Made by a program: the position numbers and the translations under genes. The notes below the pieces were generated by a model. The model worked only from the letters and a program-made list of their open reading frames with translations, was not told the DNA's origin and searched no databases. From Kyrpidia tusciae DSM 2912 (GTDB lineage Bacteria > Bacillota > Bacilli > Kyrpidiales > Kyrpidiaceae), in assembly GCF_000092905.1 (NCBI RefSeq), contig NC_014098.1, positions 2,480,001 through 2,544,000 of the forward strand: a stretch of DNA of 64,000 nucleotides, given 5' to 3'. Every line of letters starts with the position of its first letter. The first letter of the stretch is position 1. Below are positions 985-16,745 of this stretch, piece by piece.

Positions 985-1091
985 TCCCGGGCCATACCGA
1001 GCTCCCTGCGGTCGGTGCATGAAACGATACCCGGAGGGGGATCCTCACGGAGACGGGTTTCGTTTTCGCCAGACAGAGAGGAGAGGTGACC

Positions 1092-2165
1092 GTGCCCTTT
1101 CTCGTCCACATCGCCACCACAACACCCCCTCATCGGTACAGCCAAGAGGAAGTCCGGACGATGTCCAGGGAATTGTTTCGGACGAGCTTCCGGGACATCG
1201 ACCGCCTGCTCCGCACCTTCGATACCGCGGGTATCGAGTGGCGGCATTTTTGTCGGCCGGCGGAATGGTATATCCAGGGCCGCCCCTTTTCCGCCCGCAA
1301 CGCCGTGTATCAGGAGGAAGCTGTCGCCTTGGGGACGGAGGCGGCCCGGACATGCTTGACCCAAACCGGCGTCGACCCCCGGGCGATCACCGACCTGTGG
1401 TGGGTCTCCTCTACGGGCCTGGCCACGCCGAGTCCGGATATGCGGATCGCCCAGCGCCTTGGCTTGTCCGGGAAAATCAGGCGCACGCCGATCTGGGGGC
1501 TGGGATGCGCCGGGGGCGCCGTGGGACTGAGCCGGGGTCTGGCCAGCGCCGCCGCCGATCCCGATGCCCACGTCTTGGTCGTGGTCGTGGAACTGTGCAG
1601 CCTGACCTTTTTGGCGAGAGACCAGCGAAAAAGCAATCTCATCGCCACGGTGTTGTTTGCCGACGGAGCGGGCGCGGCATTGATCCTGGGAGATCGGGCC
1701 TATGAGCGGTGGAGCAAAAGGGTCCAAGAGCGTGCGGGGTCGTCCGGAGCATGGGAATGGAAGGGCTCCCACAGCATCCACTGGCCGGATACCGAAGATA
1801 TGATGGGTTGGGAGGTGGGGGACGACGGGTGGCGGGTCGTGTTCTCCCGGGACATCCCGGAATTCCTTCGTCGGCAAAAACGGGAACACTTTGCCCCGGC
1901 TGAAGAAACAATCGACCACTGGGTGGTACACCCGGGTGGGGCGAAGGTTTTGGCCGCCTATGAAGAGGTGCTTGGCTTGAACCAGGAGAGCCTGGAGTCT
2001 GCCCATGAGACGTTGAGACAGTATGGCAACATGTCCGCCCCCACCGTTTTGTTCGTCTTAAAGGACCTGGCTGAGCGGCGTTCTCTCCGGTCCGGGGACC
2101 GGACGGCTCTCCTGGCCCTGGGTCCGGGATTCTCCAGTGAACGGGTGATGCTCCAATGGAGGTAG
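1092..2165 (+). CDS. bpsA: Type III polyketide synthase (chalcone synthase-like)
   Basis: This is a 357-residue condensing enzyme of the chalcone synthase/BpsA family. Such enzymes extend fatty acyl starters with malonyl-CoA to make alkylpyrones or alkylresorcinols. The catalytic triad is visible: Cys139 in WGLGCAGGAVG, His280 in VVHPGGAKVL and Asn313 in YGNMSAP. The C-terminal LALGPGFSSE matches the family GPGF loop. GTG 1092 is preferred over GTG 1086 because the AGGAG at 1079-1083 is then 8 bases away. Its end overlaps the following methyltransferase-like gene by 10 bases, the same pairing as bpsA-bpsB (ypbQ) in Bacillus, where the products are methylated alkylpyrones. Product identity here is inferred from family and neighbour. 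Confidence 0.9.
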   Translation: MPFLVHIATTTPPHRYSQEEVRTMSRELFRTSFRDIDRLLRTFDTAGIEWRHFCRPAEWYIQGRPFSARNAVYQEEAVALGTEAARTCLTQTGVDPRAITDLWWVSSTGLATPSPDMRIAQRLGLSGKIRRTPIWGLGCAGGAVGLSRGLASAAADPDAHVLVVVVELCSLTFLARDQRKSNLIATVLFADGAGAALILGDRAYERWSKRVQERAGSSGAWEWKGSHSIHWPDTEDMMGWEVGDDGWRVVFSRDIPEFLRRQKREHFAPAEETIDHWVVHPGGAKVLAAYEEVLGLNQESLESAHETLRQYGNMSAPTVLFVLKDLAERRSLRSGDRTALLALGPGFSSERVMLQWR

Positions 2166-2866
2166 GACAGCTTTTCCCCTGGCTGATCGGCGGGGTGATC
2201 GCCCAGCGCCTGGCGGAGCTGGGCCTCGCCCGTCATAACGCCCGCTGGATCCGGGCCCGGGGTGGTTTTGAAGTTGGACGGGGACACTATCCCTGGATTG
2301 TTGTTTTGCACGTGTCCTTTTTTGCCGGGATGGTGGCGGAAGTCCGGATTCGCGGATTGGCGGGCTTTTCCGTGTGGTGGCCCGCCCTCGCCCTTTTTGC
2401 CGCCAGCCAGGGACTCCGGTACTGGTCTTTGCGCAGCCTCGGCCATTATTGGAACACCCGGATTTTCGTGATCCCGGGCCATCCACCGGTGCGGCGCGGC
2501 CCCTACCGGTGGCTGAAACACCCCAATTACCTCGCCGTCATGGTGGAGCTCGTAAGCCTGCCTTTAGCCTTTCACGCCCATTGGACGGCCCTACTTGTAT
2601 CGGTGGCCAATGCCCCGCTGCTCGCTTTGCGCATTCGGGTGGAGGAAGGAGCTTTACGTCACCCGGCTCGAACCCGGCTGGAAGTGCGTGGAGAGATGCA
2701 AGGCGACCCATCGAGTTTAAAACCCTCAACGAGCCCGGCCGAAGAAAATGAGCGGACCGGAGACGAATCCCCGGCCGCTCCCGCAACTTCCGTGGCCCAA
2801 TCCTTGTCTGCTACGAGCTCGCCCCCTGTCGCTACTGCGTCTGAACATAGCGGGGAGACGACGTGA
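2156..2866 (+). CDS. bpsB: Isoprenylcysteine carboxyl methyltransferase-like protein (BpsB/YpbQ family), possibly frameshifted
   Basis: A membrane methyltransferase of the ICMT/YpbQ family, presumed to O-methylate the alkylpyrone made by the upstream synthase. Family signatures are LRYWSLRSLGHYWNTR and RRGPYRWLKHPNYLAV, which form the SAM/membrane active region, within four or five hydrophobic helices over residues 5-160. The family normally ends soon after a motif like RIREEE. Here RIRVEEGAL is followed by about 70 residues of Ser/Pro/Thr-rich sequence overlapping the opposite-strand gene. Omitting one G near 2648 gives RIRVEEELYVTRLEPGW and a stop at 2718-2720, for a 187-residue protein of normal family size. 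The long tail is therefore suspect. Confidence 0.8.
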   Translation: MEVGQLFPWLIGGVIAQRLAELGLARHNARWIRARGGFEVGRGHYPWIVVLHVSFFAGMVAEVRIRGLAGFSVWWPALALFAASQGLRYWSLRSLGHYWNTRIFVIPGHPPVRRGPYRWLKHPNYLAVMVELVSLPLAFHAHWTALLVSVANAPLLALRIRVEEGALRHPARTRLEVRGEMQGDPSSLKPSTSPAEENERTGDESPAAPATSVAQSLSATSSPPVATASEHSGETT

Positions 2867-3707
2867 GATACCCCACAGTGCCGTCTGACAGCCGTACCTT
2901 GTACCACCAATCGTTAACCGTGGCCAGTCGTTCCGCCGACTCCCCGAGATGGAGCACGGCGACTTTCGGTGCCGAAGTTGAAGGGGCGCTCCTCACCGAG
3001 ACCCACCCTTTGACGGGGGTCACCCGATCCGTGGCACCGGAAGGAGCTGAAGCCACCGTCGAACCCGGGGAATCGGTCACCGGAGCCGCCGGCGGGCTTT
3101 GCACCGACGTGGACGGGGTGGAGGGCACGCCCGGATTCTCGGCTGCCCGCACGTGGTTCAATGGTCGACGCGCGTACAGAAAATGTGACGTCCACCATTT
3201 GTTGTTCGTGTAATCGTACTCACCCAGGGGCACCTTTGGTGAGTACGTGTGAATGATTTTCAACGTTCCATCTTGCAGCGCGATCCCCACGTGACCCACT
3301 TTACCGCCCGAGTCCGAAGTGGAGAAAAAGAGGAGATCCCCCGCTTTGATGTCGCGAATGTTGTAATAAACTCCCCAATCCCGATACTGGTTCAGATCCC
3401 CCTGTTTCTTTGAACTCGAGGAAAACCGATATCCCACCGCCGTTTGGTAGACATATTGGGTAAAATTCGAGCAGTCAAAGGTAGAATCGCCGCGAAGTTT
3501 GTTGGTTCCCCACTTATATGGAGTGCCGATCTGCGTCTCCGCCGTGTCGATCACCTTTTGCACCAGCGGATCGGCATAGTGGGCCGGATGCGCCACGTGT
3601 CCGCCGACCGGAGCCGTATCCTGGGCCAGCACCCCTGGCACTCCTGCAACTAGGCTTGTCCCAAAAAGAACCGCAACAAGGGCCAGTTTAACATGGTTAC
3701 GATACAT
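2832..3707 (-). CDS. Secreted NlpC/P60 cell-wall endopeptidase with C-terminal SH3 domain
   Basis: This encodes 291 residues with a signal peptide (residues 1-29, basic MYRNHVK then a hydrophobic core, cleavage after VLAQ). The NlpC/P60 domain spans about 45-200 with the papain-like triad Cys79 (FDCSNFTQYVY), His139 (VGHVGIAL) and His153. A Pro/Ser/Thr linker leads to an SH3-type domain (about 228-290, VSVRSAPSTSAPKVAVL) that probably binds peptidoglycan. The likely activity is gamma-D-glutamyl-diamino acid endopeptidase in cell-wall remodelling or sporulation. The AGGAG abuts the ATG at 3707, but an AAGGGG lies at about 9 bases, so this start fits the signal peptide best. It converges on and overlaps the bpsB-like tail by 35 bases. 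Confidence 0.9.
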   Translation of the reverse strand: MYRNHVKLALVAVLFGTSLVAGVPGVLAQDTAPVGGHVAHPAHYADPLVQKVIDTAETQIGTPYKWGTNKLRGDSTFDCSNFTQYVYQTAVGYRFSSSSKKQGDLNQYRDWGVYYNIRDIKAGDLLFFSTSDSGGKVGHVGIALQDGTLKIIHTYSPKVPLGEYDYTNNKWWTSHFLYARRPLNHVRAAENPGVPSTPSTSVQSPPAAPVTDSPGSTVASAPSGATDRVTPVKGWVSVRSAPSTSAPKVAVLHLGESAERLATVNDWWYKVRLSDGTVGYLTSSPRYVQTQ

Positions 3708-3815
3708 CTCCTCTCGCCCCTTTCCTGGTCGTCGCCCGCCCACATTCACGGTACCATAGGCAACAACCATTTGGGCACCCGGAGGTTGGTGGATCGCATT
3801 CCTGCATCTGACAAA

Positions 3816-3980
3816 TCACCAGGCCCCCATACGGGAAAAATGCAAATAGATTGCGCCGCAGATGGTTGTGATGATGAGAACCAAAATGCCCAGGGGAGTC
3901 ATTTGACGCAACAACATGCCTTCCCGCCCGGTCAAGTTTGTGATAAAAGCAGCGAGAGCGACGCGCGACGGAGATTCCAT
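3816..3980 (-). CDS. Small single-pass membrane protein, hypothetical (54 aa)
   Basis: The frame reads MESPSRVALAAFITNLTGRE, then one hydrophobic helix (LGILVLIITTICGAIYL), ending FSRMGAW. The codon pattern and a clean transmembrane segment suggest a real small gene, but the ATG at 3980 has no ribosome binding site; a longer start at 4055 also lacks one. It lies between the NlpC/P60 gene and the divergent yfhH. No family was recognised. Confidence 0.4.
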   Translation of the reverse strand: MESPSRVALAAFITNLTGREGMLLRQMTPLGILVLIITTICGAIYLHFSRMGAW

Positions 3981-4087
3981 GGTCAAATTGGAGTTGGCCG
4001 GTCGCACATCGTACCCCCGCGCTCTGGTCCAACGGCCACTGGGTCGTGGTATCATGAAGACAAAACCACTGGGCGGAGGGAGTCGCC

Positions 4088-4432
4088 ATTTATAAACTGA
4101 TGTGGCAAATGAGCCAAGAAGAACTGTTGGCGGAGATGGAGCGGTTGCAGAAAGAGGCGGAACGGTGCCGGGAGGAAGGGCGCTGGAACGAATGGGAAGT
4201 CCTGAAGCGCAGATACGACGTCGCCCGCTCCCACCTGGTGGAGGCGGGGACGGTACGAGTGGGGGGCCAATACCGCGTGGAGGATCACGAGGGGCTATTC
4301 ACCGTCACCCGGGTGCGGGGGATCATGGCCTTTGGGTATTTCACGCCGCCGGGCAACGACCCGACACAAGAAGAACAAGCTTTTCTGGTGGCCCTGCTGC
4401 ATCCGCCGGGGGACGACCCCGATGAAAAATGA
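4088..4432 (+). CDS. yfhH: YfhH-like protein (DUF1811), apparent AUU start
   Basis: A homologue of Bacillus YfhH: MSQEELLAEMERLQKEAE forms the N-terminal helix, followed by the beta-rich core VGGQYRVEDHEGLFTVTRV and GIMAFGYFTPP. Function is unknown; in bacilli it sits beside recX/mutY-region genes. The start is odd. An ideal GGAGG (4075-4079) is 18 bases or more from ATG 4100 or ATG 4109 but 8 bases from an in-frame ATT at 4088. Starting there adds IYKLMWQ before MSQEEL, which matches the number of residues that I recall preceding the equivalent Met of B. subtilis YfhH. I therefore annotate the ATT start. If that is wrong the gene begins at 4100. Confidence 0.85.
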   Translation: MYKLMWQMSQEELLAEMERLQKEAERCREEGRWNEWEVLKRRYDVARSHLVEAGTVRVGGQYRVEDHEGLFTVTRVRGIMAFGYFTPPGNDPTQEEQAFLVALLHPPGDDPDEK

Positions 4433-4520
4433 CCTTCCTCCGGGAACACATCCGAATCTTTTCGAGCCTGCAAGATGCCCTTCGGGCCGGATTCCGCCCC
4501 TGCAGACGATGCCGGCCCGG

Positions 4521-4994
4521 TCACGAATCCTCCGTCCCGAATACGCCTCCGGACTCGTCTTCTTCCGAGTAGACCGGGATGCCGTGGCGCTCCAACAGAG
4601 CAGCCGTCACCCCGCGCCCGGGGCGCATATTTCCCGTAAAGGTGCCGTCATAGATCGCGCCGCATCCGCAGGATGGGCTCCTCTGTTTCAACACGGCGGC
4701 CGATGCACCGACCATACGGGCGAAGTGAAGAGCTTCTTCGGCGCCCCGCACGAAGGACTCGGATACGTCCTTGCCCTCTTGGGTCAGTACTTTGGCCCGC
4801 CCATCCAACACATCCCCGCCTTCACCGCCGACGATCTGGGCCGGCGGCCTCGGGGTGGGAAGACCGCCGAGCTGCTCCGGGCAGACGGGGATGGCCCGGC
4901 CCTGGGCCACCCACTCCTCAATCCACGACAACCCCCGGCTGGAGCCGTCGTATCGACAATGACAACCCGCCAGACACGCCGAGACCAGAATCAT
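4521..4994 (-). CDS. DUF523 family protein
   Basis: This encodes 157 residues starting MILVSACLAGCHCRYDG, with the family's N-terminal cysteine cluster (Cys7, Cys11, Cys13) and the second conserved motif SPSCGCGAIYDGTFTG. VCPEQLGGLPTPRPPA is also characteristic. DUF523 (YbbK-type) proteins have no firmly established reaction; the conserved cysteines suggest metal or sulfur chemistry. Its ATG overlaps the stop of the upstream alkyltransferase gene in an ATGA arrangement, so the two are translationally coupled. Confidence 0.85.
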   Translation of the reverse strand: MILVSACLAGCHCRYDGSSRGLSWIEEWVAQGRAIPVCPEQLGGLPTPRPPAQIVGGEGGDVLDGRAKVLTQEGKDVSESFVRGAEEALHFARMVGASAAVLKQRSPSCGCGAIYDGTFTGNMRPGRGVTAALLERHGIPVYSEEDESGGVFGTEDS

Positions 4995-5482
4995 TCCGCC
5001 AGCGCCCCTTCCAATCGCAGTAAATGGGCTTTCAGATCGGTCCGGGACCCGGCATATCCCACCAAGTCCCCTTTTTTTCCCACCACTCGGTGACACGGGA
5101 TAAAAATCGGCAAGGGGTTGGCCCGATTGGCTTGGCCCACCGCCCGCACCGCCCGGGGGTTCCCGAGGGCCGCGGCGATCTCCCCGTAACTTCGCACCTC
5201 TCCGTAGGGGATCTCGCACAGGGCCGCCCATACCCGCCGGCGAAACGGACTGTCCTCGGGGAGCGACAGGGCCACATCAAAGGCGCGACGGCGCCCGGAA
5301 AAATACTCATCGAGCTGGCGGACGGCATCGCGACAGGACTCCGGATCCCGGACGAGGTCGTGAAACTCCCGCTGGATCTCTCCCCAATCCTCCTCGGTCA
5401 GCGCCACCCGGCTCACGCCGACCGAATCCATGACCACACGAAGGGTCCCAAGAGGCGTTTCCAGTTCATCATACACGGCCAC
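4991..5482 (-). CDS. ogt: Methylated-DNA--protein-cysteine methyltransferase
   Basis: This 163-residue suicide repair enzyme takes alkyl groups from O6-alkylguanine. The acceptor Cys130 is in the invariant PCHRV motif, preceded by the helix-turn-helix and arginine finger region (GEVRSYGEIAAALGNPRAVRAVGQAN). The GTG at 5482 is chosen over GTG 5503 because GGAGGG lies 7 bases upstream of it and nothing precedes 5503. It forms a coupled pair with the DUF523 gene. No regulatory Ada domain is fused, so it is the stand-alone type. Confidence 0.93.
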   Translation of the reverse strand: MAVYDELETPLGTLRVVMDSVGVSRVALTEEDWGEIQREFHDLVRDPESCRDAVRQLDEYFSGRRRAFDVALSLPEDSPFRRRVWAALCEIPYGEVRSYGEIAAALGNPRAVRAVGQANRANPLPIFIPCHRVVGKKGDLVGYAGSRTDLKAHLLRLEGALAE

Positions 5483-5631
5483 AGTCCATCCCTCCCCGAT
5501 CACAGATTTTATCGCTTCACGATCGCCCGGTGGGAATGCCTTCAGCGGTGATAAACAATTCGCGCTCGCATGAAGCTATTATAAACAGGCAAGTCTCAAG
5601 TCACAACCGTGACCACCGCGTCCTCAAGCAA

Positions 5632-5678
5632 CAAGGCGGCCCTTTCGAGCCGCGTCCACCTTACACCCGTGTGCGTCT
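5632..5678. repeat. Left copy of 47-bp direct repeat flanking the helical-repeat gene
   Basis: The sequence starting caaggcggccctttcgagcc recurs at 7788-7834 in the same orientation with 42 of 47 positions identical. The core is a GC hairpin (GCGGC, 8-base loop, GCCGC). The right copy lies just downstream of acxC; this copy lies just downstream of an acxB scrap, so both occupy the equivalent position. Confidence 0.8.
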
Positions 5679-5701
5679 TTGCTCTCAGACCATCCAGTCT
5701 T

Positions 5702-5755
5702 CGTCTAGTCCCTGACCCCACAAACCATGCGCAGGGAATGCCACATATTTCCACC
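5702..5755 (-). pseudogene. Decayed fragment of acetone carboxylase acxB
   Basis: This 54-bp segment matches positions 9144-9197, inside the intact acxB, at about 47 of 54 bases. On the minus strand it still reads GGN-W-SLRM-GxRD like the intact gene (GGNAWQSLRMVWGARDW), but a TAG stop replaces the final Trp. No further homology was seen on either side. Together with the 47-bp repeat immediately to its left it indicates an ancestral second copy of the acx 3' region, internally deleted and degenerating. The rest of 5483-6048 shows no gene: only a possible promoter (TTGGTG at 5923-5928, TACAAT at 5948-5953) before the next gene. Confidence 0.75.
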
Positions 5756-6048
5756 GCTTTCCACCTATGCGGAGAAAGCGCCAACGTCGGTTTCATGAAC
5801 ACGTACAGCGCATGATTGCAACCCGCCGATTTGAGAAACCGGCCGCCGCATCCTCCCCATTTTAATGGAGGAAGCAGCATTGGCTTTTGTGCGGAAAAGC
5901 TCAAGCCATTCAACGATCGATGTTGGTGGCTTTATTTACTTATTTGATACAATATGACTATAAGCGGTACCCGTACAGGGCGATGATCTCCGTCGCCTTC
6001 AGCGCATATCCGTACGGACGACCATACATATAGGAAAGGAGCATGAGC

Positions 6049-7773
6049 ATGGCTGCGCTGAGCTACAAGGAGTTTATCGAAGAGGTACGGACGCGTATAA
6101 GCCGGTTTACGGCGGATGATTTCCGGGACCTGATCTTGCACTGGGCCAGCGAGGAGCCTTCATCCACAAGACAAGAATTTCTGAACAAATTGATCCCCCG
6201 TGAGCGGGGGAAGCAAGAAACTCTTCCGGATGCGACCGGACTGATTGAGGAGATAGATGCTTTTGCCCAAAGAGTGAAAGATGGCGATTATTGCGACGGA
6301 TGGGGGTGGGATGAAGATATCCATGAAGCGCGGGACTGGGGCGATGAAAGCTGGGCGAGGGAAATGGACGGTTTTTTCCTGCAAACAAGAAGCTTGCTGT
6401 TGCAAGGGGATTACGAGTCTGCTGAAGAAGCTTATGTGAGGCTGTTCGGCATACTGAAGATGGGCGAGGAACCGGGACATCTTCCCGGCGCGGACTATGC
6501 GAACATGCTGGAGGTCGATCTGGCAGAGCAGGTTGCCCTTTTTCTCTGTTGTGTATATATGAATTCAGCTCCGGAACAACGGCCGGCTTCGATATACGAT
6601 GCCATGAAAAAATACGGGTATCTGGGTTCAGGCATTACGCTAAAAAGCATCACCGGCGGATTAGATATTTCGCTGCCGGACTTTGACGTTTTTTTGGCAG
6701 ATTGGATTGACTTTTTGAAAAATCAAAATCACTGGCAGGCCAGCGAGTGGCTCAGGGAAGCGGTTTTCATGAAAGGCGGCGTGCCGGCGATTGCCGAGTT
6801 TGCAAGGGAATATGCGGAAACGTATCCGCTGGCCTATATGGATTGGATAAGGGCCCTGGAGGCGCAAGGCGACACGGATGCCGTCATCCGAGTGGCCCGA
6901 GAAGGGCTGAGCAGGATCCCACGCGACTACACCCTGAGAGCGGAGATCGCGGATGTCATTGCGAAACTCGGTGAGAGCCAAGGTGACCCGCAGCTAAAGC
7001 TGGAGGGGCACAAAGAGAGCTTTTACTCGTCGCCTTCCATGGAACGTCTGGTTGATCTGTATACAACGGCCATCGAATGCGGATGCTTTGAAGAGATACG
7101 CGAGGTAGCCGAGCAGAGGATGACAGAACTTCTAAGCAGAAGCGGGACACTGCCGAACAATGGCCACAATCGCGAGCGGCATATGGCCTGCGTGCGGGAC
7201 GGAGTCTTTTTTAATGCGTTGCTTTTGGCGGGAAAATATGAGGAGGTATTTGAACATTGTCGCAAGGCGGGGCAGTTCGGATGGAGCAGCAGCGACAACC
7301 CTAAGCCTGTATTTGTCGCTTTTATGATGATGCTATTATCTAAAGGTGGAGATGACGCGAAGGTGCTGCTCCAGCAATGGGAGGATGCCATCGGACAAAC
7401 AAGCGCTCATGGCGGCGCGGAGTATGTCGGGAAGTATCAGCGTATTATAGAACATACGATAGCAACCATTGCTCTGACCGGAGAACAGGAGCAGTTTTTT
7501 TTGAAATGGTGCATGGACGAGATCGAAAAAAGAGTGGACACTATCGTAGGCAACCAGCATCGGGGGAGTTATCATAAAGCGGCGGGGCTGTTGGTCGCTA
7601 TGGCCGAGACTTTGGCGAAAAGGGGAGAGAAGCAAGCTGGCGCCAATTTAATTGAAAAGTATAGAAGCAGGTATCCGCGGCATAGCGCTTTCAGAAACGA
7701 GGTTTCCGCGGCCATGCAAAGGTCGGGGATTTTCGAGTCGGGCGCATCGGCTAAAGGAACAAAAAAGAGATGA
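6049..7773 (+). CDS. Large helical-repeat (TPR-like) protein of unknown function
   Basis: This encodes 574 residues, predicted mostly alpha-helical. An acidic, Trp-rich N-terminal part (GDYCDGWGWDEDIHEARDW) is followed by paired helices resembling tetratricopeptide or solenoid repeats (YPLAYMDWIRALEAQGDTDA, LLAGKYEEVFEHC). The C-terminus is basic (GTKKR). ATG 6049 is chosen because AAAGGAG then lies 7 bases away; the ATG at 6043 would be too close. Base composition is visibly richer in A/T than its neighbours, with codons such as AAA, TTT and ATA more common. It is flanked by 47-bp direct repeats, so it was probably acquired by transfer. It resembles uncharacterised solenoid proteins of paenibacilli; no function is assigned. 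Confidence 0.85.
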   Translation: MAALSYKEFIEEVRTRISRFTADDFRDLILHWASEEPSSTRQEFLNKLIPRERGKQETLPDATGLIEEIDAFAQRVKDGDYCDGWGWDEDIHEARDWGDESWAREMDGFFLQTRSLLLQGDYESAEEAYVRLFGILKMGEEPGHLPGADYANMLEVDLAEQVALFLCCVYMNSAPEQRPASIYDAMKKYGYLGSGITLKSITGGLDISLPDFDVFLADWIDFLKNQNHWQASEWLREAVFMKGGVPAIAEFAREYAETYPLAYMDWIRALEAQGDTDAVIRVAREGLSRIPRDYTLRAEIADVIAKLGESQGDPQLKLEGHKESFYSSPSMERLVDLYTTAIECGCFEEIREVAEQRMTELLSRSGTLPNNGHNRERHMACVRDGVFFNALLLAGKYEEVFEHCRKAGQFGWSSSDNPKPVFVAFMMMLLSKGGDDAKVLLQQWEDAIGQTSAHGGAEYVGKYQRIIEHTIATIALTGEQEQFFLKWCMDEIEKRVDTIVGNQHRGSYHKAAGLLVAMAETLAKRGEKQAGANLIEKYRSRYPRHSAFRNEVSAAMQRSGIFESGASAKGTKKR

Positions 7774-7787
7774 TTCTGTCCCAAGAG

Positions 7788-7834
7788 CAAGGCGGCCCTT
7801 TCGAGCCGCCTCCACCCTACACCCGCTTACGTCT
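7788..7834. repeat. Right copy of 47-bp direct repeat; hairpin downstream of acxC
   Basis: Partner of 5632-5678. Here the hairpin is perfect (GGCGGC 7791-7796, GCCGCC 7805-7810). It lies between the convergent helical-repeat gene and acxC, and could terminate or stabilise the acx transcript, although no strong U-tract follows on either strand. Confidence 0.75.
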
Positions 7835-7844
7835 CTATCCAGGC

Positions 7845-8351
7845 TTATTTCCCTTGCGAACCGGGCACAGGCCGGCCCAACCACTCCTCGTAAAAAGCGT
7901 CGATGTCCGGTTCAAAGTCGTGGATCACGGGATACCACGGCGTCACCGCCTCCACCTCCAGTTGGGTGCCGCAGCTCGGGCAGTAGTACTCGCGAATCAC
8001 CTGCCACTCCGGATCCGGCGCCAACAATTTCGGGTAGATTTCATTCAGTTTCTCTTCGGTGTCCCGCACATAGATCAGCGCATACAACTTCCAGTTATCG
8101 CGATAATCGCAAAATTCATGGCCGCACTCACATTTTACCACCCGGTCGCCGTTTGATTTTTGAACGATATACAGGTGCAATCCCGCCGGGAGCAGAATCG
8201 GGTCGTCCCAGGGCACCCGCTCCTGCAGAATTTGCAGATAGATATCAAAGCGTTCCGGATCTTTGTGACTGGAGAGCATCTCTTTAATTTTATAAAACTC
8301 GAGTTTTCCGTCGACCAGCTCTTCGATGGTTTTCCGGTCGTATTTCGCCAA
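7845..8351 (-). CDS. acxC: Acetone carboxylase gamma subunit
   Basis: This encodes 168 residues, the normal length of the small subunit of acetone carboxylase, the enzyme that makes acetoacetate from acetone, bicarbonate and ATP. Two cysteine pairs (KCECGHEFC and CPSCG) suggest a bound metal. DNWKLYALIYVRDTEEKL and EFYEEWLGRP-like C-terminal sequences are characteristic. The TTG at 8351 is chosen as start because GGAGGT lies 8 bases upstream and the product then begins MAKYDRKTIEEL as in homologues. The gene follows acxB by 36 bases. The presence of this subunit separates the system from hydantoinases, which lack it. Confidence 0.93.
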   Translation of the reverse strand: MAKYDRKTIEELVDGKLEFYKIKEMLSSHKDPERFDIYLQILQERVPWDDPILLPAGLHLYIVQKSNGDRVVKCECGHEFCDYRDNWKLYALIYVRDTEEKLNEIYPKLLAPDPEWQVIREYYCPSCGTQLEVEAVTPWYPVIHDFEPDIDAFYEEWLGRPVPGSQGK

Positions 8352-8387
8352 ATTTCCCCACCTCCAGGTTTCCGAATGCCGGGTCAA

Positions 8388-10730
8388 TCAGTAGGTCCGC
8401 AGTTCGCCGTAGCCGAGCACCTCGGTGTGACCCTTGATGTTGATTCGGTCCGCCGGCCGGTACCACGCCCAGTGAGCTCCGTAGACCGGCATTTCCAGTT
8501 CGTCTTCGTACAGCATCCAGTCTTCGGGAAGGTTCCAGAACCGCTTGAAGTTCTCCGTCATTTTTTTACTGATGGCAAAACTGCTGGCATACATGTGCCG
8601 GACCTGCAGAGAAGCTTCCTTATCTAAGATTCGTCGCCGCTCCTGCTCCATCCATTTCTTCGTCGGCACGCCCCGGGATATCCGTTCTTTTTTCATCTGC
8701 TGCCGCCGTTCGCGGGTTTTATCCGCATCGACGACGTATGTCCCGTCTTCCCGCCGTTCGAATACCGCCCCGTACACCCGCTCCGCATACCTGGGCAACA
8801 CATGACCCTGGTTCAAATCTTCCTCGACTTTTGCCGGGTCCCGGTCCAGGGGATCCCCGAATCCCGGCCCTCCGCGCAGGGTGTTCAGGTACAGGTCGTA
8901 ATCGTGGAACAGTTCCTCCGTCGTCACGCACTGCTTGTCGCGGTGAATCTCCCGGGCGCCGAACAGCGAGGCATAGGCGAAGTTTTCAGGATCCGGGTCT
9001 CCGCCGGTGGGGATGGGGAGTTTTTTCGCAATGCGTTCTTTCAAATCGGTGTCGTGGGCGCAAAACCGATATCCCGACGCAGCGGGATACCCGCCCATCA
9101 AACCGCAGTCGGCGCACATATACCCGTTGCCGGAGAAAAACATCGTCCAGTCCCTGGCCCCCCAGACCATGCGCAGGGACTGCCACGCATTTCCACCCCG
9201 AAATTTGCCGGCCCCCCCGGAACTCGGAAGAATTTGGCGACCGAGGTAGATGAGGGGTTCCACCAACTCCCAGATCTCCATGTCCCCCATGTCGCCCTCG
9301 GGATTCCAAAGCGCCGCGGCGTGGCTGATCCCGTCTTTGACGGCGCTGGCCCCCACTCCGTGAGCCGCCGCCTCAAAGCTGTTCACCGCGTGAATCTCCC
9401 CGTATTGATTGATGCCGCCCCCCTGCAGCCAGTTGGTGGTATGGGCATTCCCGGCGTTCACTTCCTCAAGATAACCTCGGCCAAAATAACACCGGCTGAG
9501 TCCCCGCCACAGGGGTGTCCAGGCGGTGACCAAGGCGTGCCAGGTTTCCGAGTGGGCGGTGCGGATGTCGTCCGGGTTCAGCCAGGACCCGCGGGGAATG
9601 CCGAATTTACTCGCGTAATATGGCCCGTCGTTGATGCGGTCGTTGGGCACCAAAGTCTGGGAGAGCATCACCCATATGCCGCTGGTGATGGACACGGGGG
9701 TGGCGTTAAAGCTGTGCCAGCCCCAGCGATTCGTGCCCTCAAAGTCGATTTCCAAAGTGCCGTCTTTGTGGACCGTGATTTCCGAGGGGGAGTGCATAAT
9801 CGTGTCCACCTTGGCATAAGCGGGCACGCTATTATTTTTCATCGGAACGTCACAGAAGGACACACCCCGATAAACCCCGGGAATGAGCAGGGATTTCACC
9901 TGATTGACGAAGCCCCTCCGCCCGTCTTCGATCACCTCCCGGATAAACTGTTTGTAAGTGTCAATCCCTTCCTCTCGAATCACATCCAAAACCAGATCCC
10001 GGATCATGTGACAACCCGCCACCCGGGTTTTTTCATCCAAAACCCAGTACTTGGTGGTGCGGATCGAGCGCTGGCTCTCCAGGATCCAGTCTTTAAGCAG
10101 CGTGTCCTTTTTCCCGATCTTCCGGCATGTCACCTGGTAGCCGTCTTCATACCGCTCCACCGGCCCAATGGCCATGCTTCCCGGCGCCACGGCCCCGGTG
10201 TCGATGACGTGGGTCACGCCCCCCGCCCATCCGACCAGTTCACCTTCCCAAAAAATCGGCACGATCGTATGGACGTCACAGGTATGGACGTTGCCGACGC
10301 TGTTGTCGTTGTTGCAGAAGATATCCCCGTCCTCGATGCCGGGATTGTCCTCGTAATCGTTTTGAATCATGAACTTGATCGCCGCCCCCATGGTGCCCAC
10401 GTGAATGATGATGCCCGTGGAGGTGACGATGGAGTCCGCCTCAGGGGTGTACAGACTGAAGCACAGTTCGCCTTCCTGCTCCACAATCGGCGAGGCCGCC
10501 ACCTTTTTCGCCGTTTCCCGGGCGTGGACGATCCCGCCCCGGAGCTTCGAAAAGATCTTCTCGAAACGGATGGGGTCCGACTCTTTTAAGGGCAGGGAGG
10601 TCAAGCCTGCGTAGTGGCCCGTTTTCTTGCTCAACTCGGTGATCTCTTTACGCATCTGTTTCAGCGTTTTCCCGTTCCACCCGATGGGCTTGCGCCTGGT
10701 ATCCATCACATCTTCGATCCGCGTCGCCAT
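8388..10730 (-). CDS. acxB: Acetone carboxylase alpha subunit (hydantoinase B/HyuB type)
   Basis: This encodes 780 residues, matching the roughly 775-residue HyuB-type subunit of acetone carboxylases. The start ATG has AAGGAGGG 7 bases upstream. Family stretches include GTMGAAIKFMIQNDYEDNPG, GDIFCNNDNSVGNVHTCDV and TNRWGWHSFNATP. In characterised enzymes this subunit holds the Mn-dependent carboxylation site, while the HyuA-type partner binds ATP. It is the middle gene of a three-gene operon (acxA, 33 bases, acxB, 36 bases, acxC). A short segment of this gene is duplicated and decayed at 5702-5755. Confidence 0.95.
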   Translation of the reverse strand: MATRIEDVMDTRRKPIGWNGKTLKQMRKEITELSKKTGHYAGLTSLPLKESDPIRFEKIFSKLRGGIVHARETAKKVAASPIVEQEGELCFSLYTPEADSIVTSTGIIIHVGTMGAAIKFMIQNDYEDNPGIEDGDIFCNNDNSVGNVHTCDVHTIVPIFWEGELVGWAGGVTHVIDTGAVAPGSMAIGPVERYEDGYQVTCRKIGKKDTLLKDWILESQRSIRTTKYWVLDEKTRVAGCHMIRDLVLDVIREEGIDTYKQFIREVIEDGRRGFVNQVKSLLIPGVYRGVSFCDVPMKNNSVPAYAKVDTIMHSPSEITVHKDGTLEIDFEGTNRWGWHSFNATPVSITSGIWVMLSQTLVPNDRINDGPYYASKFGIPRGSWLNPDDIRTAHSETWHALVTAWTPLWRGLSRCYFGRGYLEEVNAGNAHTTNWLQGGGINQYGEIHAVNSFEAAAHGVGASAVKDGISHAAALWNPEGDMGDMEIWELVEPLIYLGRQILPSSGGAGKFRGGNAWQSLRMVWGARDWTMFFSGNGYMCADCGLMGGYPAASGYRFCAHDTDLKERIAKKLPIPTGGDPDPENFAYASLFGAREIHRDKQCVTTEELFHDYDLYLNTLRGGPGFGDPLDRDPAKVEEDLNQGHVLPRYAERVYGAVFERREDGTYVVDADKTRERRQQMKKERISRGVPTKKWMEQERRRILDKEASLQVRHMYASSFAISKKMTENFKRFWNLPEDWMLYEDELEMPVYGAHWAWYRPADRINIKGHTEVLGYGELRTY

Positions 10731-10763
10731 AGAGCGCCCTCCTTTTCCTGAAGAAAATCCGTG

Positions 10764-12896
10764 TTATACTTCTTTGAGGTGGAAAATCCGATGGGCATCC
10801 AACACCGTTTCGAATCCCGGCGGAATCACGAAGGTGGTCGCCGGAGACTCAATGATCGCAAAAGCGCGAATCCGGTTGCCGGGCTTTAATTTTTCCATCT
10901 CCCAGATGTCCGCCTCGGTCCACTCACCGTTCCAATACACCCGGCGGGTTCCCACCAAGGCCTCCCGGGGCGGCGTTTCCCCAGCCAGGGGCTCTTGGGG
11001 GATTTTGGGTTTTGGCACGTCCACCACGCCCCGGACGATAGCTCCGGTGACGCTGTACCCCAATTCCGGTGACAGGGCGGATTTGGCGTACACCCGGCTG
11101 TAGACATCCTCGAAGGTCCGCACCAGCGCTCTCCAGTCGCCAGGACCGTCGAACCGCCGGATCGGGGCTTCGATTTCCAGATCATTTAACTGCCCTTGGT
11201 ACTGCATCCGGTAAAACAGGCGGAAGTTAACGTTTTGTTTCGAATACCCGCTTTTTGCGAATTCGTCTGCTACTTTATCTGTCAATTCATCCCAGGCAGC
11301 CTGCAGTTCCCTGCCGGCTTCCATGACCACCTCATCACTGGCCCCATCGGGAACGTTAATGTCCAGGGTTTTATCATACCGATACTCAAAATCCGCCGCA
11401 CCGCAGCCGAAGGCCGAGAACCCCGCCGCCCAGGCCGGCACCAAGACGTCCTCGAATCCGAGCCCCTTGGTGTACCCGGCAGTGTGCAGGGGCCCCCCAC
11501 CTCCATAGGAGAAGCACACATATTGCGAAGGGGTATACCCTTTGCCGAGGATCATCGACTCCAAGTAGTTGCGCAGTTGGGACTCCAACAACTGGATGAC
11601 GCCGAAAGCCGCGTCTTCCACGGACAGGCCCAGAGGATCCGCCACCTGTTCTTTAAGGGCCGCGTAGGCGCGCTCGGGGTACAATTTTACCTCGCCGCCG
11701 AGGAAGTTGTTCGGGTTGATGAGGCCGAGCACCACGTGGCAGTCCGAAACGGTGACCGTGTCCACGCCCCCTTCGGGATAACAGACGCCCACCCTGGACC
11801 CGGCGCTGTCCGGACCTAAGGTCAGGTTGCCGTAGTTCGGATCCACCCGGACGAAACTGCCCGTTCCGGCCCCCGTGGTATCCATGGACACCAAAGGAAC
11901 GGAGAGGACGAGGCGCGCCATGTCCGGGCTGGGGTTGATGCTGAGATCTCCTTGGGTGATCAGGGCGATGTCAAAACTGGTGCCCCCGATGTCCGAACAG
12001 GCAATGTTGGCAAGGCCGAGGTGCTCGCCCAGGTATTTCGCCCCGATAACGCCGCCGATCGGGCCCGAGACCAGGGTGCGGGCGAGCTCGTTCGCCCGAA
12101 TGCCGATGGTTCCCCCGTGGCTGGCCATGATCCGGAGGTCAAATTTGCTGCCGTGATCCCGCAGTTTATTTTCGATGCGCTGCAGGGTGACGCGGGAGGG
12201 ATCGGCGGCATAGGCTTCGACGATGGCGGTGTTGGTCCGGTGGGACTCTTTTCGCACGGGATAATAATCCACCGACGCGAACACCGGGATGTCGAGGTTC
12301 GCCTGGCGAATCATTTCCCGGGCTATATCCCGGATCCGCCGCTCGTGCTCCGGATATTTGTAGGAATGGAGCAGGCTGATGACTATCGCTTCCACATTTT
12401 TCTCAAGAAGGGTGCGGATGGCCGGTTCCACCTCGTGTTCGTACAGGGGAATCACCACATTGCCGAACATGTCCACCCGTTCGGTCACCCCCACGGTCAA
12501 TTCTCTCGGGACCAGGGGTGGGTCAAAATGGTGGGTGTTGATGTGAATCCGGTCGGAGTACGAGTAACCGAGGTACGACTGGACGGCCCGACCCATGCGG
12601 TGGTTATCTTCCATGCCCTTATTGACGATGAGCCCCACCCGGCGCCCCTTCCGCGATACCAAACGATTGAGCATGGCAGTCCCGGAGTATACCCCGGCCA
12701 CCAAATGGGGCAATTCCTCTTCGACCTTTGTTCCCCAGTGATTCAACGCATCCCGGGCGGAATTGATGAGACCCACGGATTCGTCCTCCGGGGTGGATTG
12801 CGCTTTGCCGACGACAAATTCACCGTTCTCATCAATGATGAAAGTGTCGGTCATGGTGCCGCCGGCATCAATGGCGAGAATTTGGGATCTGGCCAA
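10764..12896 (-). CDS. acxA: Acetone carboxylase beta subunit (hydantoinase A/HyuA type)
   Basis: This encodes 710 residues. The N-terminus ILAIDAGGTMTDTFIIDENG is the ATP-binding phosphate loop of the HyuA/ASKHA superfamily, and CSDIGGTSFDIALI is the second nucleotide loop. It activates acetone and bicarbonate with ATP in the alpha2-beta2-gamma2 acetone carboxylase. The TTG at 12896 fits the family start and has AAAGGAG 9 bases upstream; a more distal start would add residues not seen in homologues. It is the first gene of the operon, with a sigma-54 promoter about 45 bases upstream. Confidence 0.95.
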   Translation of the reverse strand: MARSQILAIDAGGTMTDTFIIDENGEFVVGKAQSTPEDESVGLINSARDALNHWGTKVEEELPHLVAGVYSGTAMLNRLVSRKGRRVGLIVNKGMEDNHRMGRAVQSYLGYSYSDRIHINTHHFDPPLVPRELTVGVTERVDMFGNVVIPLYEHEVEPAIRTLLEKNVEAIVISLLHSYKYPEHERRIRDIAREMIRQANLDIPVFASVDYYPVRKESHRTNTAIVEAYAADPSRVTLQRIENKLRDHGSKFDLRIMASHGGTIGIRANELARTLVSGPIGGVIGAKYLGEHLGLANIACSDIGGTSFDIALITQGDLSINPSPDMARLVLSVPLVSMDTTGAGTGSFVRVDPNYGNLTLGPDSAGSRVGVCYPEGGVDTVTVSDCHVVLGLINPNNFLGGEVKLYPERAYAALKEQVADPLGLSVEDAAFGVIQLLESQLRNYLESMILGKGYTPSQYVCFSYGGGGPLHTAGYTKGLGFEDVLVPAWAAGFSAFGCGAADFEYRYDKTLDINVPDGASDEVVMEAGRELQAAWDELTDKVADEFAKSGYSKQNVNFRLFYRMQYQGQLNDLEIEAPIRRFDGPGDWRALVRTFEDVYSRVYAKSALSPELGYSVTGAIVRGVVDVPKPKIPQEPLAGETPPREALVGTRRVYWNGEWTEADIWEMEKLKPGNRIRAFAIIESPATTFVIPPGFETVLDAHRIFHLKEV

Positions 12897-12920
12897 ATGC
12901 TGTCGCTCCTTTCGGGGAGA

Positions 12921-12936
12921 ATACGTGCACACGTAT
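12921..12936. promoter_or_regulatory. Inverted repeat in the acx leader
   Basis: ATACGTG and CACGTAT arms separated by two bases lie between the sigma-54 promoter and the acxA start codon, at about the expected transcription start. It could be an operator for a second regulator or a short leader hairpin. There is no independent evidence for either role. Confidence 0.4.
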
Positions 12937-13188: not shown

Positions 13189-15324
13189 TTGTATCACGCA
13201 CATCGCACGGTGTTGTCCCTCGAGGAACTCAGTAAGCAGCGCCGTCGGTTGGAGGAAAGTTGGGACCATTTTTTACGCGATCCCCGGGCGGCAGGAAACT
13301 CTTCCATTCGTTCCGTCGTCTTGGAGTCCTGGAGCCGATGTGTACAGTCCGGGGTTGACCCTCGCCGCAAGGCGACGGATATTTCTCTAAAAGAAGATCA
13401 GATCAAAGACATTCTTCAATATTCTCAGTTATATGAACTCTCCTTTCCTATTTTGCAGGATTTATCCTTGCAGGTGAAAGAGACGGGTTATCTGGTCACC
13501 CTCTGCGATCCCAAGGGCCACATCCTGTTCCTGGACGGGGACCGCCAGGTTCTTAAGAAAGCGGAACGGATGAATTTCGTAGTGGGAGCGGATTGGAGCG
13601 AGCAGTCCATCGGGACCAATGCGATCGGCACATGTTTGGAAGTCGGCCAGCCAGTACAGATTTTCGCCGCCGAACATTTTTGTGTGGGGGTGCAGGACTG
13701 GACCTGTTCTTCGGCGCCGATTCGGGATCCCATTTCCCGGGACATCATCGGGGTGGTGGATGTCACCGGCCTGTGGCGGGACAGTCAGCCCCATACCCTG
13801 AGCATGGTGACCATGGCCTGTGGAACCATCCAGTCCCGGATGAACCAACAGATTGCAGGAGCGCGGTTGGAACTTTCCGAACATTATCAGCAGACCCAGC
13901 AGCGATACCCGGGAAACGGCGTGATGGCCCTGGACGCCGCCTTCCATCCAGTGGCCGTCAATGAAGAGGCCAGGCGGATTTTGCGGCGGCATTCCGGTCG
14001 GGAAGTGGAGCAGTGGTGGGACAATGAACGAATCCACGCCGCACTGTTTGCATCGCGGAGTCCCTCCGTAGATGAGGGGATGTACGAAGTGACCCTGGAG
14101 GAATGCGGGATTCGCGTGGTCGTCGAGGAGGTCCAGTGGTCCGGACGGCGGGTTGGCTACCTCCTGATCCTTCGGCCCATGGGTTCCCAGAAGACGGCGG
14201 GAGGCCCCACGGTGGCCTGGGGAGGAGTGATCGGTCGCAGTCCGGAGATTCTCTCGGTCATCTCCCGTTGCGACGTGGTGGCCCATACCGACGTGCCGGT
14301 ATTGCTGCTCGGGGAAAGCGGGACCGGAAAGGAACTGTTCGCCCGGGGCATCCACCAAGCCGGCCCCCGCCGGAACGGGCCCTTTATTGCCGTCAACTGC
14401 GGGGCTCTGCAAAAGGATCTTTTGGCCAGTGAACTGTTCGGTTACGCCCCCGGGGCCTTTACCGGCGCCTCGAAAACGGGGAAGGCGGGGAAGTTCGAGG
14501 AGGCCCAAAACGGTACATTGTTTTTGGATGAGATCGGCGAAATGCCCCCAGAATTTCAGGTTCATCTGCTTCGCGTGCTCCAGGAGCGCGAAGTGGTTCG
14601 GCTGGGGTCCTCTCAACCGATCCCCGTCAACGCCCGGATCATCGCCGCAACCCACCGAAACCTGGAGGAGATGATGAGAAGAGGGGAATTCCGGGAAGAT
14701 TTGTATTTCCGCCTGCATGTGGTCAGTTTGACGATTCCACCGCTTCGCGATCGCCGCGGGGACATTCCCCTGCTCATCGACCACATCTTGGACCAGCTGT
14801 CCAAGCGCTACCACATTCCCAGACCGGGCCTGGAGCCTGAAGTGTTCGATTTCTTCGTCCACCACTACCCGTGGCCGGGAAACGTGCGGGAACTCAAGCA
14901 CGCCCTGGAATACGCTGTGCTTTTCTGCAACCGCGTCATCACCTGGCGGGATTTGCCCGAAACCCTGCGCAAAGCCGCGTTCGGCGATTCAGGTCGGTCC
15001 CTGACGCCATACGTTTCAAACGTAGTGTCAACACCTGGGGATCCCCGACCGGCTTTGGAGAGATCCACCGCCCGTCCAGCACCGAGGCGTGCCTTACCCG
15101 GAGCTGTGGAGGCCGTTCCGGCCTCGAAATTGGAGCCAACCCCTGAATCAGGAGCCAATCCCGGGCCGGTGGACGCCGCAGCGGACCGTCAGCAGCTCTT
15201 GCAGCTGTTGGAGGAAGTGGGCGGCAATCTTTCCGAGGCGGCCCGAAGACTTCGCATCGCCCGCACCACCTTGTATCGCCGACTTGACCGATACGGAATC
15301 CGCAAGCACCTGAAGATCGAATAG
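13189..15324 (+). CDS. acxR: Sigma-54-dependent activator, acetone carboxylase regulator (AcoR/AcxR type)
   Basis: This encodes 711 residues. The N-terminal sensor (about 30-200) is GAF-like and includes NFVVGADWSEQSIGTNAIGT, typical of AcoR-family regulators that sense small ketones or acetoin; a second PAS-like part follows (about 230-325). The AAA+ domain has Walker A GESGTGKE near residue 375, the sigma-54 contact motif GAFTGA near 422 and LFLDEIGEMP. A Fis-type helix-turn-helix (GNLSEAARRLRIARTTLYRR) ends the protein. The start is TTG 13189, with only a weak GGGGTG upstream. It is divergent from the acx operon, whose promoter is sigma-54 type, so it is the presumptive activator. Confidence 0.92.
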   Translation: MYHAHRTVLSLEELSKQRRRLEESWDHFLRDPRAAGNSSIRSVVLESWSRCVQSGVDPRRKATDISLKEDQIKDILQYSQLYELSFPILQDLSLQVKETGYLVTLCDPKGHILFLDGDRQVLKKAERMNFVVGADWSEQSIGTNAIGTCLEVGQPVQIFAAEHFCVGVQDWTCSSAPIRDPISRDIIGVVDVTGLWRDSQPHTLSMVTMACGTIQSRMNQQIAGARLELSEHYQQTQQRYPGNGVMALDAAFHPVAVNEEARRILRRHSGREVEQWWDNERIHAALFASRSPSVDEGMYEVTLEECGIRVVVEEVQWSGRRVGYLLILRPMGSQKTAGGPTVAWGGVIGRSPEILSVISRCDVVAHTDVPVLLLGESGTGKELFARGIHQAGPRRNGPFIAVNCGALQKDLLASELFGYAPGAFTGASKTGKAGKFEEAQNGTLFLDEIGEMPPEFQVHLLRVLQEREVVRLGSSQPIPVNARIIAATHRNLEEMMRRGEFREDLYFRLHVVSLTIPPLRDRRGDIPLLIDHILDQLSKRYHIPRPGLEPEVFDFFVHHYPWPGNVRELKHALEYAVLFCNRVITWRDLPETLRKAAFGDSGRSLTPYVSNVVSTPGDPRPALERSTARPAPRRALPGAVEAVPASKLEPTPESGANPGPVDAAADRQQLLQLLEEVGGNLSEAARRLRIARTTLYRRLDRYGIRKHLKIE

Positions 15325-15356
15325 CCCGGCGCTCCGAAGCGCCGGGCCCGCAATTT
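15325..15356 (+). terminator. Rho-independent terminator after the sigma-54 activator gene
   Basis: A perfect 9-bp stem (CCCGGCGCT, loop CCGA, AGCGCCGGG) begins one base after the TAG stop and is followed by CAATTTT. It separates this gene from the convergent mntH. Confidence 0.85.
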
Positions 15357-15401
15357 TCCAATTCGGAAAACCCGTGATTATTCCTATAACGTAAGCCACC
15401 G

Positions 15402-16709
15402 TCAATTGCCCAAGAAAGGCGCCGGGCCACCCAAAGCTTGATAGATGAGGAGGGCGTTCAGCACCGTCACCACCGCCGCCACGACGCTCGCCACCCAGGT
15501 CGTCAGCCGGCGGTTCACCAGGATTCCCATGATGTCTCTTCTCCTGGCAAAATAGATCAAGGTGATGACCGGAACCGGCAGGACCAAACTCAGCACCACC
15601 TGACTGATCACGAGCGTCCGGGTGGGATCCACCCCCAAGGCCACCACGATAACCGCGGGAATCATCGTCACCACCCGCCGCAGCCACACCGGAATCGTGA
15701 ACCCCACGAATCCCTGCATGATCACCTGCCCTGCCATCGTCCCCACCGTCGAACTGGATAGGCCCGAAGCCAGGAGGGAGATCAAAAACACCGTCGCCGC
15801 CGCCGGGCCCAAAAGGGGGGTCAGCGTTTGATACGCCGTGGTGATGTCGGCCACCGCGGTATGACCGCTGGCGTAAAACACCGATGCCGCCATGTACATC
15901 ATCGAAAGGTTGATCAGCCCGGCAATCCCCATGGCGATCACCACTTCTTTGACACTGAACCGATTGATCATCCGCTTTTCCCGGTCGTCCCGGGGAATGA
16001 TCCGGCGCTGGGTCAGTCCCGAATGCAAGTACACCACGTGAGGCATCACCGTGGCCCCGATCACGCCCACGGCCAACATGACACTTTCTTGGGGTCCGAG
16101 CCAGGGCACCACACTGTGGTACACAACCTGGCCCCATTCCGGCTTGGAAAGGATCGTCTCCACCAGATAACTCAGTCCAATCACGGCCACCAATCCGGCA
16201 ATGACCTTTTCCAACGGTCGGAATCCGAATCGCTCCAAGGTCAGAAGAAGGTAAGTGACCACCCCTGTGATGAGGACCGCCACCAACATCGGGATGTGGA
16301 AAAGCAAGTGCAAAGCCAGGGTCGCTCCAAGAAATTCGGCCAAATCCGTGGCCATGGCGGCCAACTCCGACACGATCCATAAGGTGACTGAAACGCCTTT
16401 TGGAAAATGATCCCTGCACAATTCCGGCAGGTTTTTCCCCGTTGCGATGCCCAGCTTTGCGGACATGCTCTGGATCAGCATGGCCATTAAGTTCGCCATC
16501 ACCACCACCCAGAGCATCTGGTATCCGAACTGGGAGCCACTTTCAATGTTGGTGGCGTAGTTTCCGGGATCCATGTACGCCACCGACGCGACGAAGGCCG
16601 GACCGACAAAGGGCAAGAGCGCCCGAAAGCCTCTTCTTTTGCCGCTTATGGCCATCCTGGCCGCGGCCACCGCCTTGCGATCGCGAATCCCAACCGATAT
16701 CTCGGTCAC
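15402..16709 (-). CDS. mntH: Nramp-family Mn2+/H+ symporter
   Basis: This encodes 435 residues with eleven predicted membrane helices. The metal-site motif DPGN is at residues 47-50, and the second signature VMPHVVYLHS (helix 6) is intact, so the protein should import Mn2+ (or Fe2+) with protons. The GTG at 16709 is preferred to the GTG three codons earlier because the AGGAGG would overlap the earlier one. The gene is monocistronic, with its own promoter and an inverted repeat in the leader. Manganese is also the expected metal of the nearby SoxB-like protein and acetone carboxylase, but that link is speculative. Confidence 0.93.
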   Translation of the reverse strand: MTEISVGIRDRKAVAAARMAISGKRRGFRALLPFVGPAFVASVAYMDPGNYATNIESGSQFGYQMLWVVVMANLMAMLIQSMSAKLGIATGKNLPELCRDHFPKGVSVTLWIVSELAAMATDLAEFLGATLALHLLFHIPMLVAVLITGVVTYLLLTLERFGFRPLEKVIAGLVAVIGLSYLVETILSKPEWGQVVYHSVVPWLGPQESVMLAVGVIGATVMPHVVYLHSGLTQRRIIPRDDREKRMINRFSVKEVVIAMGIAGLINLSMMYMAASVFYASGHTAVADITTAYQTLTPLLGPAAATVFLISLLASGLSSSTVGTMAGQVIMQGFVGFTIPVWLRRVVTMIPAVIVVALGVDPTRTLVISQVVLSLVLPVPVITLIYFARRRDIMGILVNRRLTTWVASVVAAVVTVLNALLIYQALGGPAPFLGN

Positions 16710-16745
16710 CTCAGTCACCTCCTCTTTTCTTTATGACTGAAACAA

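Follow-up and report, generated by a model that had tools for sequence, protein, structure and literature searches.

A decayed partial copy of the distal acx operon beside the intact operon of Kyrpidia tusciae

On the chromosome of Kyrpidia tusciae DSM 2912 (3,384,766 bp in a single contig), a hairpin-bearing sequence that follows the last gene of an acx operon is encountered a second time on the far side of a neighbouring gene, next to a fragment of acxB, which raises the question of how these pieces of the operon came to reside outside of it. The window, by which we refer to the entire analysed stretch of 64,000 nucleotides (G000:C1:2480001-2544000), contains the intact operon and its surroundings with the following features:

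7778..7834, minus strand: intact post-acxC sequence with the hairpin GGCGGC-TCGAAAGG-GCCGCC, a possible weak acx terminator
7845..8387, minus strand: acxC, acetone carboxylase gamma subunit (PF08882, E 3e-54)
8388..10730, minus strand: acxB, Hydantoinase_B subunit (PF02538; corresponds to the alpha subunit of the solved acetone carboxylase, 5m45/5svb), from which two of the relic pieces derive
10764..12932, minus strand: acxA, Hydantoinase_A subunit (by Pfam)
13189..15324, plus strand: probable activator gene of the acx operon, acxR-like by sequence and syntenic with the sister species

The joint presence of Hydantoinase_A, Hydantoinase_B and Acetone_carb_G subunits is the signature of an acetone carboxylase operon, and the stretch 7845-12932 is thus assigned to this enzyme by gene content and protein families. 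The hairpin at 7778-7834 could act as its terminator, although it lacks a strong T-run.

A sequence-only reading of the region had described a 47-bp repeat with a hairpin core, identical at 42 of 47 positions, on either side of a helical-repeat gene, and beside its left copy an acxB fragment matching at about 47 of 54 bases and carrying a premature TAG. Both are reproduced in our alignments, the repeat with the same identity (5632-5678 and 7788-7834) and the fragment with 48 of 55 identical bases (5701-5755 and 9143-9197), each with a score of 82 compared to means of 26-28 (sd about 2.7) in dinucleotide shuffles. Between the two resides a third match that the reading had missed, where 5671-5703 corresponds to acxB 8498-8526 with an exact core of 13 bases (5691-5703 and 8514-8526) at the collinear position, and whose score was equalled in 2 of 1000 shuffles of 7835-9142. 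The left block can consequently be described as follows:

5620..5678, minus strand: decayed copy of the post-acxC sequence with hairpin (7778-7834), in which a C>G change at 5654 breaks one stem pair
5671..5703, minus strand: second relic piece, a copy of acxB 8498-8526, whose initial bases overlap the first junction
5674..5678: first deletion junction with CGTCT microhomology, joining 7830-7834 to 8501-8505 with the loss of 671 bp
5701..5703: second deletion junction with TCG microhomology, joining 8524-8526 to 9143-9145 with the loss of 619 bp
5701..5755, minus strand: relic of the acxB codons GGNAWQSLRMVWGARDWT, a copy of 9143-9197 with a Trp codon turned into a stop

With the third piece added to the two main matches and the two microhomology deletions, the whole of 5620-5755 is accounted for as a continuous 136-bp relic of the distal acx operon (7778-9197) adjoining the intact operon, whose three pieces (7778-7834, 8506-8526 and 9146-9197) are collinear and on the same strand. 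The predicted product of the two deletions agrees with the observed sequence in 115 of the 130 bases aligned, and the latter has six additional bases at the left. In a control restricted to 25 usable products, and therefore of little weight, random two-deletion products reached at best 146 compared to 179 for the relic. Judged from these alignments, the relic represents a single stretch of the distal operon after two deletions, each at a short direct repeat, which supports the earlier proposal that the left side once carried acx sequence and has lost its middle. The duplicated stretch is traceable over 7778-9197 only, and a full second operon lies outside that evidence. That the similarity would reflect chance or convergence of GC-rich sequence, which is favoured by the shortness of the pieces and by nothing else, is hardly credible in view of scores that are about 20 sd above those of shuffles, the collinear order and the complete account of all 136 bp. 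Whole-genome searches retrieved acxB as the sole match of the acxB fragment, thus arguing against its occurrence at many unrelated loci. Two further paralogs of hydantoinase type in the genome (51%, 41%) were considered as its source and rejected, as they gave chance short matches only.

The space between the relic and the intact operon is occupied by unrelated sequence:

5777..5833, plus strand: 3'-end relic of a Fic-type gene (86% over 57 bp; fuller copy ending at G000:C1:2059037-2059093, L013)
5831..5868, plus strand: left end of a TnpB-bearing element of IS200/605 type, the remainder of which is missing (97% over 38 bp)
6043..7773, plus strand: TPR-like helical-repeat gene of 576 aa, intact and without a match in close relatives

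The Fic-like assignment rests on the motif HPFGDGNGR, and at the Fic locus elsewhere in the same genome the sequence continues without an IS insertion. Longer copies of the IS200/605-type left end are present in K. tusciae, in its sister species and in a genome of a different genus (G000, G001 and G003), and this dispersed sequence (TTGAGAAACC...CCCCATTTTAATGGGG...GGCGGCC; L014-L022) precedes a TnpB-type ORF in L014 (PF07282). As a separate observation, the 30 bases at 5868-5897 are 97% identical to L004 1501-1530 in G004, whose genome belongs to a different family. The earlier characterization of the TPR gene as AT-rich and foreign-looking appears fair, since its GC3 is 0.58 compared to 0.64-0.77 in the neighbouring genes measured and it is absent from 60 relatives and from the sister species, while homologues with 44-55% identity are found in more distant, scattered Bacillota. 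Inspection of their neighbourhoods by eye revealed no conserved gene partner, and no defence-system family was matched. A phage or plasmid origin of the gene was rejected after no match was obtained in plasmid, phage and viral collections. As the Fic-like 3' end and the IS left end lie between the relic and the TPR gene, the latter may have arrived separately, and the order of the debris thus leaves a link between its arrival and the duplication unsupported.

The close spacing of the repeats around the TPR gene, whose stop codon ends at 7773 while the right repeat starts at 7778, would also be compatible with a small mobile element that carries this gene and has the repeats as its ends, att sites or target duplications. 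We consider such an origin very improbable. The homology is not confined to the ends of the insert but continues from the left repeat into the collinear acxB pieces, no intact integrase or transposase gene is located between the two copies, and no homologues of the TPR gene were found in the plasmid, phage and viral collections. Moreover, the 47-bp repeat is present in two full copies only in the genome, with an additional match of 16 bases, and is thus not the common dispersed element that could have undermined its relation to acx. In G002 and G003, the matches are partial and extend over 15-24 bases. The 19-base hairpin core has nine exact matches in viral contigs. A search for a tRNA that might serve as integration site found none.

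The relation between both copies is further reflected in the kind of changes that distinguish them. Among 15 substitutions between the relic and the intact operon, 11 replace G/C by A/T and two proceed in the opposite direction. Within the acxB piece, this bias applies to all seven changes, of which six are nonsynonymous, including the stop, and one is synonymous. The in-frame TAG noticed earlier takes the place of a Trp codon that does not vary among the relatives compared, and wherever a changed codon can be polarised, the relatives favour the intact right copy as ancestral and the relic as derived. The excess of nonsynonymous changes, the stop and the ancestral state of the right copy together illustrate that coding constraint was lost in one copy only, the relic. 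Although the mutation counts are small as a consequence of the short length of the relic, their pattern is, as far as can be read from the sequence, that of the neutral decay of a pseudo-copy, whereas two working copies would diverge mainly at synonymous positions. The predicted RNA fold of the hairpin has a z-score of -1.56 in the relic compared to -2.42 in the intact copy. With 7/55 changes, the divergence of the relic resembles the 7/64 found in intergenic sequence of the sister species, with overlapping intervals, a comparison that is too weak for dating.

Comparison with a relative lacking the TPR gene is provided by the sister genome Kyrpidia EA-1 (G001, 3,352,175 bp), which aligns collinearly with the window as far as 5609, interrupted by a single gap close to 5543, and does so once more from 13087 onwards. 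EA-1 thus retains the flank containing the ada-like gene to the equivalent of 5609, and the scar is absent. The interval instead harbours a different acx operon, whose proteins are 63-67% identical to those of K. tusciae, together with an acyl-CoA ligase gene. This ligase gene, which follows acxC in EA-1 and G003 and is also found on a G002 contig, has no counterpart in the K. tusciae operon; it is 94-96% identical among G001-G003, while its best match in K. tusciae reaches 38%. In a tree of acxB, EA-1 is placed beside Hydrogenibacillus, and K. tusciae branches off first within a clade with full support that otherwise consists of Bacillaceae and relatives. The ligase-acxC-acxB block of EA-1 (L011 7294-10720) is 94% identical to its equivalent in G003, which belongs to a different genus (L148 6798-10193), whereas the flanking gene is only 68% identical, thus pointing to an exchange of operons at this locus and to a recent cross-genus transfer of the operon at the same site. 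By these comparisons, the genus has undergone at least one replacement of the acx operon between the ada-like and the activator gene. The K. tusciae interval contained no relics of an EA-1-type operon, and EA-1 in turn contained none of the hairpin or of acxB in their K. tusciae form. An earlier stage of the duplication was not seen in the genomes sampled, G001-G003, nor is any strain known to carry it in undecayed form.

Three further observations concern these genomes. The left edge of the EA-1 acx block (L011 about 6800-7000) contains, by eye, an apparent remnant of an IS3-type transposase. The G002 contig with the ligase block (G002:C86, L145 1-3221) matches G003 with 97% identity from end to end although G002 is filed in Kyrpidia, and may be misbinned. 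Finally, the fourfold-site divergence from EA-1 (JC) is 0.04-0.16 to the left of the locus (1086-5503) compared to 0.30-0.32 to its right (13189-16718), a contrast that suggests recombination in the flanks too.

The exchange of operons at this site raises the prospect of loss followed by regain, where a previous acx operon of the K. tusciae type would have decayed to 5620-5755 and the intact operon, perhaps together with the TPR gene, would later have been imported by recombination on the acxR side. The transfer described for EA-1, the separation of both operons in the acxB tree and the position of the repeat boundary at the end of the operon are all compatible with such a course of events. 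However, a diverged donor would be expected to add mainly synonymous differences, and these are few, with the small numbers described above, while the polarisable changes lie on the side of the relic, which makes this scenario rather unlikely.

Our data are probably best explained by recombination at acx that created a partial second copy of the distal operon, followed by its decay through two deletions and biased point mutations, with foreign debris accumulating between the copies. Such an event would have left a second distal end, comprising the hairpin, acxC and a portion of acxB, in the space that separates the ada-like gene from the intact operon. It would have been either an unequal crossing-over or one crossover with an acx-bearing molecule that came in from elsewhere and differed in what lay downstream of the operon. 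In both copies, the homology starts at the end of the operon, on the left beside the ada flank and on the right beside the stop codon of the TPR gene, a shared boundary that would be expected if the partners in a single crossover were two acx molecules with different downstream neighbours. The same product would result from a tandem duplication whose breakpoint was close to the end of the operon, and our data do not separate the two. As non-functional DNA, the spare copy would subsequently have been reduced to 136 bp by the 671-bp deletion at CGTCT, the 619-bp deletion at TCG and mutations biased from G/C to A/T, while the Fic-like 3' end, the IS200/605-type element, of which the left end is left, and the TPR gene, which is intact, would have filled the space between the copies in an order that we can only infer. 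The sequence-only reading had already arrived at duplication or recombination at acx with ensuing decay, which our analysis upholds; its proposal that the same event introduced the TPR gene is not supported by our data, as the Fic-like and IS debris lies in between. A single event is unlikely to account for the entire insert since the latter contains several unrelated pieces. We tentatively entertain the broader and somewhat doubtful idea that the ada-activator interval might be an exchange site through which Kyrpidia and neighbouring genera trade entire acx operons that are of distant origin, with the scar as footprint of one exchange that also brought in the TPR gene. A literature search on this locus retrieved nothing.

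Collectively, the locus combines features of several known systems. In gene content and protein families, the intact operon resembles the acxABC acetone carboxylase operon (5m45, 5svb). By itself, the relic is a textbook pseudogene scar, and it shares with bacterial pseudogene remnants of partial duplications the collinear partial copy, the deletions at short direct repeats, the premature stop and the bias of changes from G/C to A/T, differing from them in its locus only and in the fact that both junctions are still readable, which makes it a clear example of such decay. Its surroundings add a catabolic operon that is of different origin in a sister species with conserved flanking genes, and of which one version has apparently moved across genera. 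As in xenologous operon replacement, K. tusciae and EA-1 differ in the acx operon that is enclosed by their ada-like and activator genes, which are themselves syntenic, but in contrast to such replacement, the scar in K. tusciae is a relic of its own type of operon rather than a trace of the other.
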